This document shows positions 3,403 through 24,591 of a stretch of DNA of 64,000 nt, one piece after another. Both the position numbers and the translations under genes were made by a program. The notes beneath the pieces are model-generated. The model did no database searches. It saw only the letters and a list, made by a program, of their open reading frames with translations, and had not been told where the DNA came from. Source of the stretch: an uncultured Saprospiraceae bacterium (lineage in GTDB: Bacteria > Bacteroidota > Bacteroidia > Chitinophagales > Saprospiraceae); NCBI GenBank assembly GCA_937944245.1, contig CALDYY010000069.1, forward strand, positions 1-64,000, read 5' to 3'. Within the stretch, counting starts at the first letter, position 1, and every line of letters starts with the position of its first letter.

Positions 3403-4155
3403 ATGATAAATTTGACGGCTGTTGTTATTGCCAGAAATGAGGCACATCAAATTGAGCGTTGCTTGGGTGCGTTAAAGCAAGTGGCGAATGAGATTGTATT
3501 AGTTGATAGTGGCAGCACAGACAATACCGCTGTACTTGCTCGACTGCTTGGCGCAAATGTGGTAGAATACAATTGGCAGGGTTATGCCCAAAATAAAAAT
3601 TACGGTAACGCGCTCGCTCAATCCGATTGGATTCTTTCTATTGATGCGGATGAAGTCCTTTCTGAAGAACTAATACAAAGCATTCAGCAGTTACAAGTGT
3701 CTGAAAATGAAGTATATGCTTTGGATAGGATAAATAATTACTGCGGTACTTGGGTAAAATATAGCGGTTGGTATCCAGATTGGAAACCCCGTATTTTTAA
3801 TCGGAAGCAAGTGCAATGGCAAGGTGATTTTGTGCACGAAACACTTTTCGTTCCCAGCTATTTTAAAATGATAAAACTGAAGGGTAAACTATGGCATTAT
3901 AGTTACAACAGTCCACAGGATCATATTCGAAAAGTTAGTGAATACGCAGGTTTATCTGCAAAGTCCTTATTTCAAAAAGGGAAAAAATCATCGTTTTTTA
4001 AAATTTGGTTTTATCCTATAATTCGTTTTTTAAAAACTTATTTATTGAAATTGGGCTTTTTGGATGGTAGAGCGGGTTTAAGTATTAGTCGGTACGATGC
4101 CTATCTTGTTCACTTGAAGTATAAACAACTAAAAGCACTTCATGCAAAAAATTAA
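3403..4155 (+). CDS. Glycosyltransferase family 2 (WaaE/KdtX-like)
   Basis: 250 residues. A GT-A fold is shown by VVIARNEAHQIERCLGALK, the nucleotide-binding VDSGSTDNT and the SIDADEVLSEEL metal motif. The downstream segment with KPRIFNR and VHETLF resembles LPS-core beta-glycosyltransferases of the WaaE/KdtX group. It probably adds a sugar to a lipid-linked surface glycan on the inner face of the membrane; donor and acceptor are unknown. Start is 3 bp after cysQ, and the 3' end overlaps the next gene by 14 bp, so the genes are likely translationally coupled. Confidence 0.88.
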   Translation: MINLTAVVIARNEAHQIERCLGALKQVANEIVLVDSGSTDNTAVLARLLGANVVEYNWQGYAQNKNYGNALAQSDWILSIDADEVLSEELIQSIQQLQVSENEVYALDRINNYCGTWVKYSGWYPDWKPRIFNRKQVQWQGDFVHETLFVPSYFKMIKLKGKLWHYSYNSPQDHIRKVSEYAGLSAKSLFQKGKKSSFFKIWFYPIIRFLKTYLLKLGFLDGRAGLSISRYDAYLVHLKYKQLKALHAKN

Positions 4156-22257: not shown

Positions 22258-22627
22258 GTTGTTTTTTTAGTAGAAATAATGTAATTTACAGGAGCGTAAC
22301 ACAGAATTAAGACTTTGGTTTAGCCGTAAAGTCACCTACATACTACTGATAGGCTGCTGTTTTGACTGTGTGAAAGATTCTTTTAGAAATAGTGAAGTGC
22401 GATAGGAGAATATAGTGTTGTTAAGTTATGTTCATGCGATAAGGCTTTCACGAAGGGTAGAACAACTATGGTATCAAAAAAATACAAGCAAAATTGCTTC
22501 AGCAGTTATTATGATGTGTGAAAGTGTGTAGTTATGACACCTAGATTATATTGCACTTTTGATATGGTAAATTGAATTAACTATTTTTTATCGTTAAATC
22601 TGAATTTTTTAAAAGATAGGTTTTATG
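22258..22627. other. Left part of the long non-coding interval
   Basis: No coding frame. It contains a variant of the conserved RNA-array box, ATGTTCATGCGATAA, at 22428-22442, two copies of TGTGTGAAAG (22368-22377 and 22514-22523), and a small hairpin AAGCAA-AA-TTGCTT (22486-22499). It looks like decayed array material plus the folE leader. Confidence 0.45.
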
Positions 22628-22638
22628 TTTTTTTCACA
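22628..22638 (+). repeat. T-run-CACA element, orphan copy 1
   Basis: TTTTTTTCACA, the upstream element of the array promoters, without a recognisable -7 box at the right distance. Probably a decayed unit. Confidence 0.4.
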
Positions 22639-22692
22639 AAAAAAAATATAAAAAACAATTAATAATTGATGTTAAAGATGAAATTATTTTTA

Positions 22693-22752
22693 TTTTTTTT
22701 CACATATAAGGTTAATTGTTCCTTTTTTGATAAAATTTTACCTTCATATTTG
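22693..22752 (+). promoter_or_regulatory. Array promoter module, unit 1
   Basis: TTTTTTTTCACA (22693-22704), 11 nt, TTG (22716-22718), 26 nt, CATATTTG followed by TA (22745-22754). The same elements at the same spacing recur at 22906-22965 and 23469-23524. Confidence 0.6.
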
Positions 22753-22758
22753 TAATGC

Positions 22759-22840
22759 AATAAGGAAATAGAGAAAAATAAGTGAATTGCTTTGTAAAGA
22801 TAAAGCAGCGTTTTTGAAAATGAAAGTAAATAAAATAAGA
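22759..22840 (+). ncRNA. Array unit 1: small RNA with AAAG-loop hairpin, 3' part degenerate
   Basis: Downstream of the unit-1 promoter there is a purine-rich start and then an 8-bp hairpin TGCTTTGT-AAAG-ATAAAGCA (22788-22807, one G-U pair). No copy of the conserved box and no terminator hairpin follows, so the 3' end is only a guess. Probably a partly decayed member. Confidence 0.35.
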
Positions 22841-22870
22841 TTTTTTTCACACAACAAATCTTGTTCTTTT
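22841..22870 (+). repeat. Decayed array promoter (T-run-CACA plus TTGTTCTTTT)
   Basis: TTTTTTTCACA (22841-22851), 9 nt, then TTGTTCTTTT from 22861. At the expected -7 position (about 22890) there is no TTTG. A remnant of the same module. Confidence 0.4.
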
Positions 22871-22905
22871 GATTTACTTGGCTTTTATATAGAAATTAAG
22901 TTATG

Positions 22906-22965
22906 TTTTTTTTCACAACATGCTTAATTTGTTCTTGTTTTGAAAAAACGCTTTTCTCACATTTG
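22906..22965 (+). promoter_or_regulatory. Array promoter module, unit 2
   Basis: TTTTTTTTCACA (22906-22917), 11 nt, TTG (22929-22931) followed by TTCTTG, 26 nt, CACATTTG and TA (22958-22967). A second TTG at 22935-22937 gives the classic 20-nt spacing to the -7 box. Confidence 0.65.
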
Positions 22966-22971
22966 TATCGT

Positions 22972-23105
22972 GATTGGTGGTGAAAGAAAGGAAGAGGACA
23001 GAAGCCTTATAAAGATAAGGTAAAATAATTTGAAATATGTTCATGGGATTATAATTTGTTGATGGTAGGTCGTCCTGAAGTTTTTCAGGACTGACTACTT
23101 TCTTT
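22972..23105 (+). ncRNA. Array unit 2: structured small RNA with conserved box and terminator
   Basis: About 134 nt. Order: purine-rich segment, hairpin CCTTAT-AAAG-ATAAGG (23005-23020), conserved box ATATGTTCATGGGATTA (23035-23051), then the GGTCG-type hairpin 23065-23098 (4-bp plus 8-bp stem around a 3x3 internal loop) and TTTCTTT. The terminator tail points to plus-strand transcription. No protein is encoded: the ATG of the box opens only five codons before TAA. This is a complete member of the family. Confidence 0.6.
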
Positions 23106-23131
23106 AAGGTATGTCCTAAAAAAAATATTGG

Positions 23132-23252
23132 TCGCACCAGAAGACAAAAAAGGCTAACTAAAAGTAGCTAGCCTCAATCATGTTCACGGGATATAATCAA
23201 AACAACTATAGGGATAAAAGATCAATTTCTGTTTTTGTCTTTCTGGTGCGAA
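23132..23252 (+). ncRNA. Array unit 3: long-stem element containing a variant box
   Basis: TCGCACCAGAA-GACAAAAA (from 23132) is complementary, with one bulge, to TTTTTGTC-TTTCTGGTGCGA ending at 23251, closing a stem of about 19 bp. Inside lie a hairpin AGGCTA-A-CTA-AAAG-TAG-C-TAGCCT (23151-23174) and a variant box ATGTTCACGGGATATA (23180-23195). It shares the box and the AAAG loop with its neighbours but has no obvious promoter or terminator of its own. On the minus strand the inner hairpin is followed by TTTTTT, so it could be a minus-strand terminator. A MITE-like insertion is another reading. Confidence 0.4.
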
Positions 23253-23269
23253 TTTAGTTTGAATGTTTG
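23234..23269 (+). promoter_or_regulatory. Possible promoter of array unit 4
   Basis: TTTGTCTTTC (from 23234), 24 nt, AATGTTTG (23262-23269). It resembles the other array promoters but lacks the T-run-CACA element and one -7 consensus base. Confidence 0.3.
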
Positions 23270-23275
23270 ATATAC

Positions 23276-23361
23276 GCAATATATTAATTAAGAAAATTAT
23301 GTTTTTGGATATGTTCATGGGATTATGATAGTAGGTCGTACAATTTGTGCGACTTTTCTTT
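23276..23361 (+). ncRNA. Array unit 4: small RNA with conserved box and terminator
   Basis: The box ATATGTTCATGGGATTA (23309-23325) is identical to units 2 and 5. Nine nt later comes GTCGTAC-aattt-GTGCGAC (23335-23353; seven pairs, one G-U) and TTTTCTTTT. A weak AT hairpin with an AAGAA loop lies upstream (23285-23299). The 5' end is uncertain. Confidence 0.5.
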
Positions 23362-23399
23362 TCTCAAAAAAACATATTAAATACAAAAAGTAAGTTTTC

Positions 23400-23411
23400 T
23401 TTTTTTTCACA
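23400..23411 (+). repeat. T-run-CACA element, orphan copy 2
   Basis: TTTTTTTTCACA without a TTG/-7 pair at the usual distances; 58 bp upstream of the functional-looking module of unit 5. Confidence 0.4.
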
Positions 23412-23468
23412 AGAAAGCCTCTTAAGATACAGTTAAATAAGTCATTTTAATTATCCAGCCGATTAAAA

Positions 23469-23524
23469 TTTTCACACTAACTCGAATTTGTTCTTTCTTT
23501 CTATCAATTTTATATTCACATTTG
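23469..23524 (+). promoter_or_regulatory. Array promoter module, unit 5
   Basis: TTTTCACA (23469-23476), 11 nt, TTG (23488-23490, in TTTGTTCTTTC), 26 nt, CACATTTG and TA (23517-23526). Spacing is identical to units 1 and 2. An 8-bp hairpin ATTTTAAT/ATTAAAAT (23444-23469) precedes it. Confidence 0.65.
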
Positions 23525-23530
23525 TAGTAT

Positions 23531-23690
23531 GTAAGAGGGAAGAATACAAACTGTTAAGAAATAGTTAAAGTTTTATATGGAATGAAAAGCAAACATTGGC
23601 GAAAAAAAAAGCATTGCCAATTTAAAAGATTTATATGTTCATGGGATTACTTATGTTAATGGTCGAGTCAAATGCTCGACTATTTTTTTT
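23531..23690 (+). ncRNA. Array unit 5: structured small RNA with conserved box and terminator
   Basis: About 160 nt. Order: purine-rich start, hairpin AACTGTT-AAGA-AATAGTT (23549-23566), hairpin ATTGGC...GCCAAT (23595-23621), conserved box ATATGTTCATGGGATTA (23633-23649), then GTCGAG-tcaaatg-CTCGAC (23662-23680) and a run of eight T. The T run touches the stop codon of the convergent deacetylase gene. This is the clearest member, with promoter, box and terminator all intact. Confidence 0.62.
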
Positions 23691-24591
23691 AGAAAAATAG
23701 AGCTTGAGTAACCCTGAAAGTATTAGCATGTGCTTCCACAATATCAGCTATTCTTGAAGAATAACCTCCACCCATGCTTACCGCAACTGGGATTTTGTTT
23801 TTTTTGCAAAGGGCTAAAACGTAATAATCGCGCTGTTTTGTTCCTTCCATACTCAAACCAAGTCTTCCGAGTTTATCCGTAGCCAACACGTCCACACCAG
23901 AAAGGTAGAAAATAAAATCTGGTTGATGTAGGTCTATCAGTCGAGGTAGTGTATGTTCTAATTGTGCTAAGTAGGGTTTATCTGTAATGCCATCGGGTAA
24001 GCCAATATCTAAATCTGACTGTTCCTTTCGTAATGGGTAGTTGTGTTCACCGTGCATACTAAAGGTGAATACACGCGGTTCATCCTTAAAAATTTGTGCT
24101 GTACCATTTCCTTGATGTACATCTAGGTCAATAATCAAGATTTTTTGTACCAATTTTTGATGTAGTAAATAATTAGCGGCTATGGCAATGTCATTAAGTA
24201 AGCAAAATCCCTCTCCTTTGTAGGTGAAGGAATGGTGTGTTCCACCTGCTACATTCATGGCTACTCCGTATTGCATAGCGAAAAGAGCACATTCAATAGT
24301 GCCACGAGCAATATAACGCCCTCTTCTAACGAGCACTTCAGAAAGTGGAAATCCGATTGCTCTAATTTCTTTAGGCGTTAAGGATAAGGTTTTCAATTTT
24401 TCCCAATAAGTAGCTTCGTGTGTTAACAAAAGTGTGGCTTCGTCTAGCAATTCTGGATGAAAAAAATTATCTTCTGCCACTGTACCTTCGTAAAGCAGTT
24501 GCTCTGGTATCAATTCATATTTTATCATCGGAAAGCGATGTCCTTCTGGAAGTTGATATTTGTAGATAGGTGAAAAAGCAATCTTGAGCAT
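23689..24591 (-). CDS. Histone deacetylase-like amidohydrolase (HDAC/AcuC/AphA superfamily)
   Basis: 300 residues. The zinc ligands Asp-x-His and Asp are in IIDLDVHQGNGTA and LSGVDVLATDKLGRLGL; the catalytic His pair is GGTHHSFTYKGEGFCLLND. Bacterial members remove acyl groups from lysine, acetoin-like substrates or acetylpolyamines; which one cannot be said. I start at 24591 (MLKIAFSPIYKYQLPEGHRF), since homologues begin at this strand. The stop codon overlaps the terminator of array unit 5. Confidence 0.9.
   Translation of the reverse strand: MLKIAFSPIYKYQLPEGHRFPMIKYELIPEQLLYEGTVAEDNFFHPELLDEATLLLTHEATYWEKLKTLSLTPKEIRAIGFPLSEVLVRRGRYIARGTIECALFAMQYGVAMNVAGGTHHSFTYKGEGFCLLNDIAIAANYLLHQKLVQKILIIDLDVHQGNGTAQIFKDEPRVFTFSMHGEHNYPLRKEQSDLDIGLPDGITDKPYLAQLEHTLPRLIDLHQPDFIFYLSGVDVLATDKLGRLGLSMEGTKQRDYYVLALCKKNKIPVAVSMGGGYSSRIADIVEAHANTFRVTQALFF

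Follow-up and report, generated by a model that had tools for sequence, protein, structure and literature searches.

Positions 22258–23690 of the window (the whole 64,000-nt stretch of Saprospiraceae DNA analyzed here) lie between folE and a gene of the histone-deacetylase family. An earlier note had described this interval as a protein-free tandem array of small structured RNAs, and the lack of proteins holds: its only frames of at least 60 aa are two on the minus strand (63 and 74 aa) with GTG starts, neither of which was taken for a gene. The 17-nt box on which that description was built (ATATGTTCATGGGATTA) is indeed exact at 23035, 23309 and 23633. Allowing up to three mismatches, the 64 kb contain five matches, compared to a mean of 0.28 in 100 shuffled sequences (0/100 reach five). 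Because of this excess, and because the word is clustered again in relatives, a chance origin of the boxes is unlikely. GGTCG starts 16, 8 and 11 nt 3' of the boxes at 23035, 23309 and 23633, respectively, and each time opens a hairpin; the fold agrees, so the claim of such a hairpin 8–16 nt after each exact box is borne out.

Two other details stood in part. T-rich letters do follow all three hairpins (TTTCTTT after the box at 23035, TTTTCTTTTCT after the one at 23309 and eight T at 23683–23690), but only the last of these tracts, at the end of the array, is strong. As for the two proposed box variants, the one at 23180 (ATGTTCACGGGATATAAT), which sits inside a stem formed by 23132–23151 and 23232–23251, was taken as real because relatives have a better copy at the same place. 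The other (22428, located at 22426) has three mismatches to the box and was rejected as a unit: with a unit model, R1, applied to the window at E values up to 0.1, only 23001–23104, 23275–23363 and 23599–23686 were matched, and nothing around 22428.

Predicted transcripts in the window

The array resolves into two predicted transcripts, both on the plus strand. T1 (22968–23363, ~395 nt) would start directly after a promoter at 22929–22967 (TTGTTCTTG ... CACATTTGTA), from which its start was deduced, and carries three boxes. It opens with hairpin P1 (23005–23020, CCTTA-UAAAGA-UAAGG, from the fold and the swap test described below), whose A-rich loop is kept and whose stem is changed in many relatives. 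Box 1 and its extension follow (AUAUGUUCAUGGGAUUAUAAUUUGUU, 23035–23060; exact match and unit profile), and then hairpin P2 of the GUCGUCC family (23065–23098). A middle domain is closed by P3, an inverted repeat with its 5' strand at 23132–23151 and its 3' strand at 23232–23251, also supported by the swap test. Inside P3 lie hairpin P4 (23152–23173, GGCUA...UAGCC with an AAAAG loop), placed by the layout of three-box transcripts, and the degenerate box 2 (23180–23197), placed by reading the sequence and comparing transcripts. Box 3 (23309–23325; exact match, R1 E 1.4e-06) is followed by the T1 terminator (23334–23363), which was read in the sequence and folded.

T2 (23527–23690, ~160 nt) has one box and is matched by R1; its start was deduced from a promoter found by motif scan at 23488–23526. 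A predicted hairpin (23596–23620) precedes the box (23633–23649; exact match, R1 E 1.5e-06), and the terminator, GUCGAG...CUCGAC followed by the eight T, occupies 23661–23690. Further upstream, a promoter-like module at 22716–22754 has the layout of the T1 and T2 promoters, with no box at the expected distance and no R1 match. The repeated hairpin read in the sequence at 22789–22806 (GCTTTGTAAAGATAAAGC) is probably the remnant of the first hairpin of the same transcript, so that 22716–22806 (promoter-like module and P1-like hairpin, without a box) looks like a decayed, third transcript copy. Two loci from the same genus, L145 and L144, each have two promoters and four boxes (in L144, the second promoter comes from a strict motif scan and the first from a looser one). 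As these four boxes have a spacing similar to that in the window, T2 has probably lost one box.

Conservation of the word, promoters and helices in relatives

We profiled 115 units from 41 loci (the window and 40 further cluster regions). Units were picked by ATGTTCATGGGATTA (15 letters, at most two mismatches), so the constancy of that part is partly by choice, but the extension TAATTT, which was not selected for, is kept letter by letter in 96, 90, 94, 89, 85 and 73 of the 115 units, and positions beyond it are largely free. The resulting 24-nt word (AUGUUCAUGGGAUUAUAAUUUGUU) usually occurs in two to four copies per transcript, with six in one locus. Across the 41 loci, 105/105 boxes with at most one mismatch are on the cluster's strand and none on the other.

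Ahead of the first box, a 39-letter promoter module begins with TTGTCYTTG and ends with CATATTTGTA; TTTTTTCACAA often precedes it, and the module resembles what we take to be a Bacteroidota promoter type. Strict counts were restricted to clusters with at least two boxes, of which there are 38 including the window. In 20 of these, a strict promoter precedes the first box, and two (the window and L145) have one between boxes; a run of at least seven T follows the last box in 30/38 clusters and inner boxes in 6/64 cases. Because promoter and strong terminator are thus usually present once per cluster, most clusters resemble a single transcript in which AUGUUCAUGGGAUUAUAAUUUGUU is repeated several times, between hairpins. 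With a looser −7 motif set, a promoter was placed in 27/41 loci (L172 is doubtful), and the first box lies 51–76 nt from it in 22 of these 27, the others being at 37 and 183–246 nt. Predicted transcript lengths range from 221 to 648 nt and fall between 355 and 475 nt in 15/24 loci, with three two-transcript loci left out.

Three-box transcripts have the layout P1, box 1, P2, the P3-closed middle domain (P4, box 2 and often GAGAUUACAAUUUGUUA), box 3 and the terminator P6, with a further hairpin, P5, before box 3 in several. The alignment used for this layout (A1) contributed to none of the counts. P3 strands differ in sequence and still pair: UCGCACC/GGUGCGA in the window, CGCGUCAAAC/GUUUGACGCG in L152 and GCGUCAA/UUGACGC in L175. 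In a swap test on 18 of 19 transcripts (L171 was left out for its box spacing), none of 2000 random swaps reached the mean stability of the native strand pairs, for P1, P2, P3 and P6 alike. The native pair was the best of its row in 11/18 transcripts for P1, 9/18 for P2, 4/18 for P3 and 8/18 for P6; in L167 and L153, the stretch taken was not the intended one. P3 is weak in 5/18 transcripts (L160, L167, L168, L173, L179), and the middle box is very poor (5–6 mismatches) in L181, L182 and L179. For P2, a 17-row alignment has 86.9% of its cells paired, and 7/13 pairs are changed on both sides; its covariation score was reached by 0/500 shuffles and its number of doubly changed pairs by 3/500, in shuffles that ignore the kinship of the rows. 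The spacing of P1 varies, so no count was made for it on alignment A2 and its case rests on the swap test. The boxes themselves are predicted to be unpaired. The view that a constant box beside a variable but always pairing stem marks a selected plus-strand RNA is thus upheld by compensating changes in the swap test, P2 covariation and the single strand of the boxes.

Some loci have peculiarities of their own. In L178 (G045:C26), a two-box stretch is tandemly duplicated, with boxes at 0, 195, 507 and 705. L150 (G014:C57) has three units 138 nt apart, two of them nearly identical, and a CT-repeat tract replaces the T-run after the hairpin. The cluster in L183 (G058:C54) is degenerate and rich in short TTCATGGGATTA copies; the start of a divergent lipoprotein-like gene overlaps with one box-like copy. 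Finally, the contig ends ~60–370 nt from the cluster in G026:C149, G027:C6, G022:C418, G003:C231 and G049:C101, as if repeats broke the assembly.

Distribution, neighbors and related RNAs

At up to three mismatches, ATGTTCATGGGATTATAATTTGTT is found in 46/62 genomes of the same family and in 3/186 others of the order, compared to 1/248 for a reversed control. The figure of 46/62 is a low count, as units with another extension are missed (e.g., G053, which has boxes by the 15-nt search and none here). DNA similarity to 22950–23700 is present in 32/37 family genomes and 0/23 others. The 15-nt form, allowing one mismatch, matched 68/100 relatives, with zero to two reversed-control matches per genome; among the matches listed, close copies form clusters in genomes of the same family, and genomes of other families have one or two scattered copies. 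Nine of these scattered sites were inspected (L014–L022), and no terminator-like unit was seen at them. By these searches, the RNA appears nearly restricted to Saprospiraceae, with several loci in a genome; the family was deduced from the best folE match in the GTDB collection, a Saprospiraceae bacterium at 73% identity.

Building a unit model and searching with it, a check that had been proposed, recovered the three window units but no 22428 unit. At a cutoff of E 0.01, R1 gave 103 matches across 56 loci that had been selected for arrays, second-group RNAs (below) or viral-collection copies; its training set was 17 units, the first unit of the window among them, and those 17 match by construction. 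In 80 folE loci, R1 had no match better than E 0.024 apart from the window's three units, and the seven of these loci that are from Saprospiraceae or Lewinella (L064–L069, L079) are without an R1 unit, so a place beside folE is not the rule. Nor does the array always sit by the same genes: the histone-deacetylase-family gene adjoins it in the window, L160 and L175, is ~3 kb away in L171 and L179 and does not appear in the other 36/41 loci. Two settings do recur, namely between a MauG/MbnP cluster and a giant gene with SprB repeats (e.g., L146, L172, L174) and 3' of a cadherin-like protein with a Por secretion tail (e.g., L147, L162, L173). Neighbor families were assigned from one or two members per protein cluster.

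A second group of RNAs has the box UUCAUGAGAUUAURAUUUGU (UUCAUGAGAUUA), mostly as one box followed by a terminator, which is the shape of seed-type small RNAs. These were found in seven genomes examined (G000–G004, G014, G017), at L277, L278, L280–L284, L286–L289, L293 and L294; R1 matches 8 of the 13 loci. Two of them, L277 and L278, are in the genome that the window comes from (the source genome). In L278 (contig C90), positions 1125–1139 read TGATTCCATGAACAT, approximately the reverse complement of the box, on the same strand and ~60 nt before the second-group box; by its sequence, pairing of this stretch with boxes, in trans or inside the RNA, is conceivable. Box units are also present on three viral-collection contigs (L184, L185 and L186). 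L185 is clearly phage, as its unit (3999–4088) lies between a DnaB-like helicase gene and replication-initiation and primase genes. For L184 there is a weak tail-fiber match, and L186 has only matches mostly of unknown function.

Possible function and alternative explanations

From the sequence comparisons, the locus almost certainly encodes a real, selected multi-box noncoding RNA, which would be transcribed and act in trans. Our main reading, to which we give a probability of roughly 0.45, is that its boxes are copies of one seed, which pairs with mRNAs close to their start codon and blocks their translation. One promoter would drive a free-standing structured RNA, most often of 355–475 nt, in which the seeds would be displayed between hairpins (P1–box–P2, then the P3 domain with P4 and a box, then box–terminator). 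As UUCAU is the complement of AUGAA, each seed could pair in trans with an mRNA at its start codon and prevent its translation, and several seeds per molecule would give a high capacity.

The clearest candidate target in the source genome is a secreted acetyl-xylan-esterase-family gene with TAACAAATTGTAATACCATGAA at its likely start, 20/22 letters of which are complementary to the word. Seven further sites, in relatives, lie on the starts of frames of at least 198 aa (at most 3/20 mismatches). All eight sites have signal-like N-termini by eye, and Pfam domains were found in five of the genes (acetyl xylan esterase family, DUF4382, HYR, polyketide-cyclase-like and MORN) and nothing in the other three. 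These eight come from 92 matches in 19 family genomes, most of which are the RNAs themselves on the other strand; those that were not obviously boxes were inspected. For the true pattern, 41 rows were listed; one site is there twice, and two rows are from other families. Of the 18 family sites matched by a permuted pattern, 17 were inspected; two of them lie on long-frame starts, and a further three starts were matched outside the family.

Overall, the target evidence is weak, and the bulk tests were negative. In a fixed register, 6 of 1762 sampled ATGs match at 12/18 or better, compared to 3.0 for permuted seeds (p 0.12). At 14/18 or better there are three sites (p 0.0007), two of which are the array read backwards and the third the esterase site, whose contig was sampled with the site already known. 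Duplex energies over 888 starts were not lower than those of 120 shuffled boxes, and signal-like starts had no significant excess (7 vs 3.3 at −16 kcal/mol, p 0.10). All 200 shuffles were beaten by each of the two best duplexes, but both were discounted as evidence: the one in L183 is at an array boundary and reads as a further box copy on the array strand, and the other, in L305, is the knowingly sampled esterase site. A candidate target in a 5' UTR (L004) is partly kept in one relative. SusC mRNAs were rejected as targets, with no match to the word seen by eye at their starts (30 loci of 49 matches).

The main rival is titration of an RNA-binding protein, in which the boxes would bind, for example, a single RRM protein and a multi-box RNA would sequester it, just as CsrB titrates CsrA. 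Several identical sites in one transcript would suit this, and the source genome has one RRM protein. Usual RRM sites are shorter than 24 nt, however, and the conserved word is long for one. CsrA (PF02599) and Hfq have no match in the source genome, and RRM genes also turn up in two control genomes that do not belong to the family, while the word is almost exclusive to Saprospiraceae. In Bacteroides, the RRM protein RbpB binds a multicopy RNA family and has a preference for single-stranded regions (PMC11697453), which again speaks for titration. On balance, we consider titration rather unlikely, and seed pairing is slightly favored over it.

The remaining explanations are less probable still. 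We regard the earlier note's proposal, that the repeats are independent tandem small RNAs of 85–160 nt, as improbable. A hairpin does follow the box in most units, cutting of a long precursor is conceivable, and in the window T2 does have one box and ~160 nt, but for most clusters the counts of strict promoters between boxes (2/38) and of strong T-runs (6/64 after inner boxes, 30/38 after the last) argue for a single RNA, and P3 encloses the middle box in many loci. That the boxes are a DNA-level repeat (a recombination or mobile-element site) is very improbable. Copies at several loci and on the three viral-collection contigs would be in line with such a site, but promoter and terminator placement, compensating helix changes and the single strand per cluster are not, nor are gene neighborhoods common to different genomes. 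Least probable of all is a gene for a tiny peptide, MFMGL followed by a stop. Two of the window's three units, and many further ones, do contain ATG TTC ATG GGA TTA TAA or TGA, but codons vary no more at their third position than at the first two (subject to the mismatch limit by which units were selected), and middle boxes and the T2 box keep the word without the stop; peptide coding was rejected for these reasons.

Returning to seed pairing, the closest design we found is FopS of Bacteroides, in which a single-stranded word pairs at susC mRNA start codons and an RRM protein counters it (PMC11697453). The source genome, with one RRM protein and no match to Hfq or CsrA, offers the kind of setting in which FopS acts. 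The likeness to FopS/GibS covers the phylum, the multicopy state, a conserved word before a terminator hairpin, UUCAU, phage copies (FopS is also in a Bacteroides phage) and a host RRM protein (PMC11697453). FopS has ~65–70 nt with one seed near the 5' end and then the terminator, by the same source, whereas the Saprospiraceae RNA is longer, with a repeated word and a closed middle domain. Neither window transcript has the FopS size and layout, as T1 has ~395 nt, three boxes and its box 1 ~68 nt from the promoter end, and T2 has ~160 nt. The similarity of the word to that of FopS is not significant (p 0.05–0.23 vs shuffles), and common descent was rejected on this ground; our best guess is a resemblance in design, with homology unsupported. 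FopS was deposited in Rfam according to PMC11697453, and Rfam 15 scans of the window and 14 further loci gave no FopS match, in a copy of Rfam that may not contain it.

Two other systems are comparable. CsrB and RsmZ are likewise single transcripts with repeated identical words between hairpins, but the source genome has no CsrA, and the word here is 24 nt and predicted to lie outside hairpin loops, as opposed to GGA within loops. The sibling RNAs Qrr and OmrA/B share a long identical seed across paralogs while other parts differ; they have one seed per RNA, however, and usually depend on Hfq, which is without a match in the source genome.

The claim that the array belongs to no Rfam family was confirmed, with 0 window matches in Rfam 15. 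In relatives' loci there were only two matches, far below gathering scores, and Rfam membership was rejected as none was above threshold. Listings of open-license papers contained no study of small RNAs from Saprospiraceae or related genera, or of the word. As far as can be guessed, the RNA works like known regulatory RNAs, and its build is unlike any known to us. We tentatively suggest, with less confidence than for seed pairing itself, that it may represent a new class, in which a large RNA scaffold with several identical 24-nt seeds between hairpins would be a central post-transcriptional regulator of the family, with single-seed satellites and phage copies using the same word.

Saprospiraceae degrade polymers and are widespread, and this RNA, if the proposal is true, would be their first post-transcriptional regulator known to us. 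A family-wide, repeated 24-nt word would make it possible to test cleanly what selection holds constant, the repeated seeds or the repeated binding sites of a protein, and the phage unit of L185, beside helicase and primase genes, offers a way to ask if phages exploit the system.
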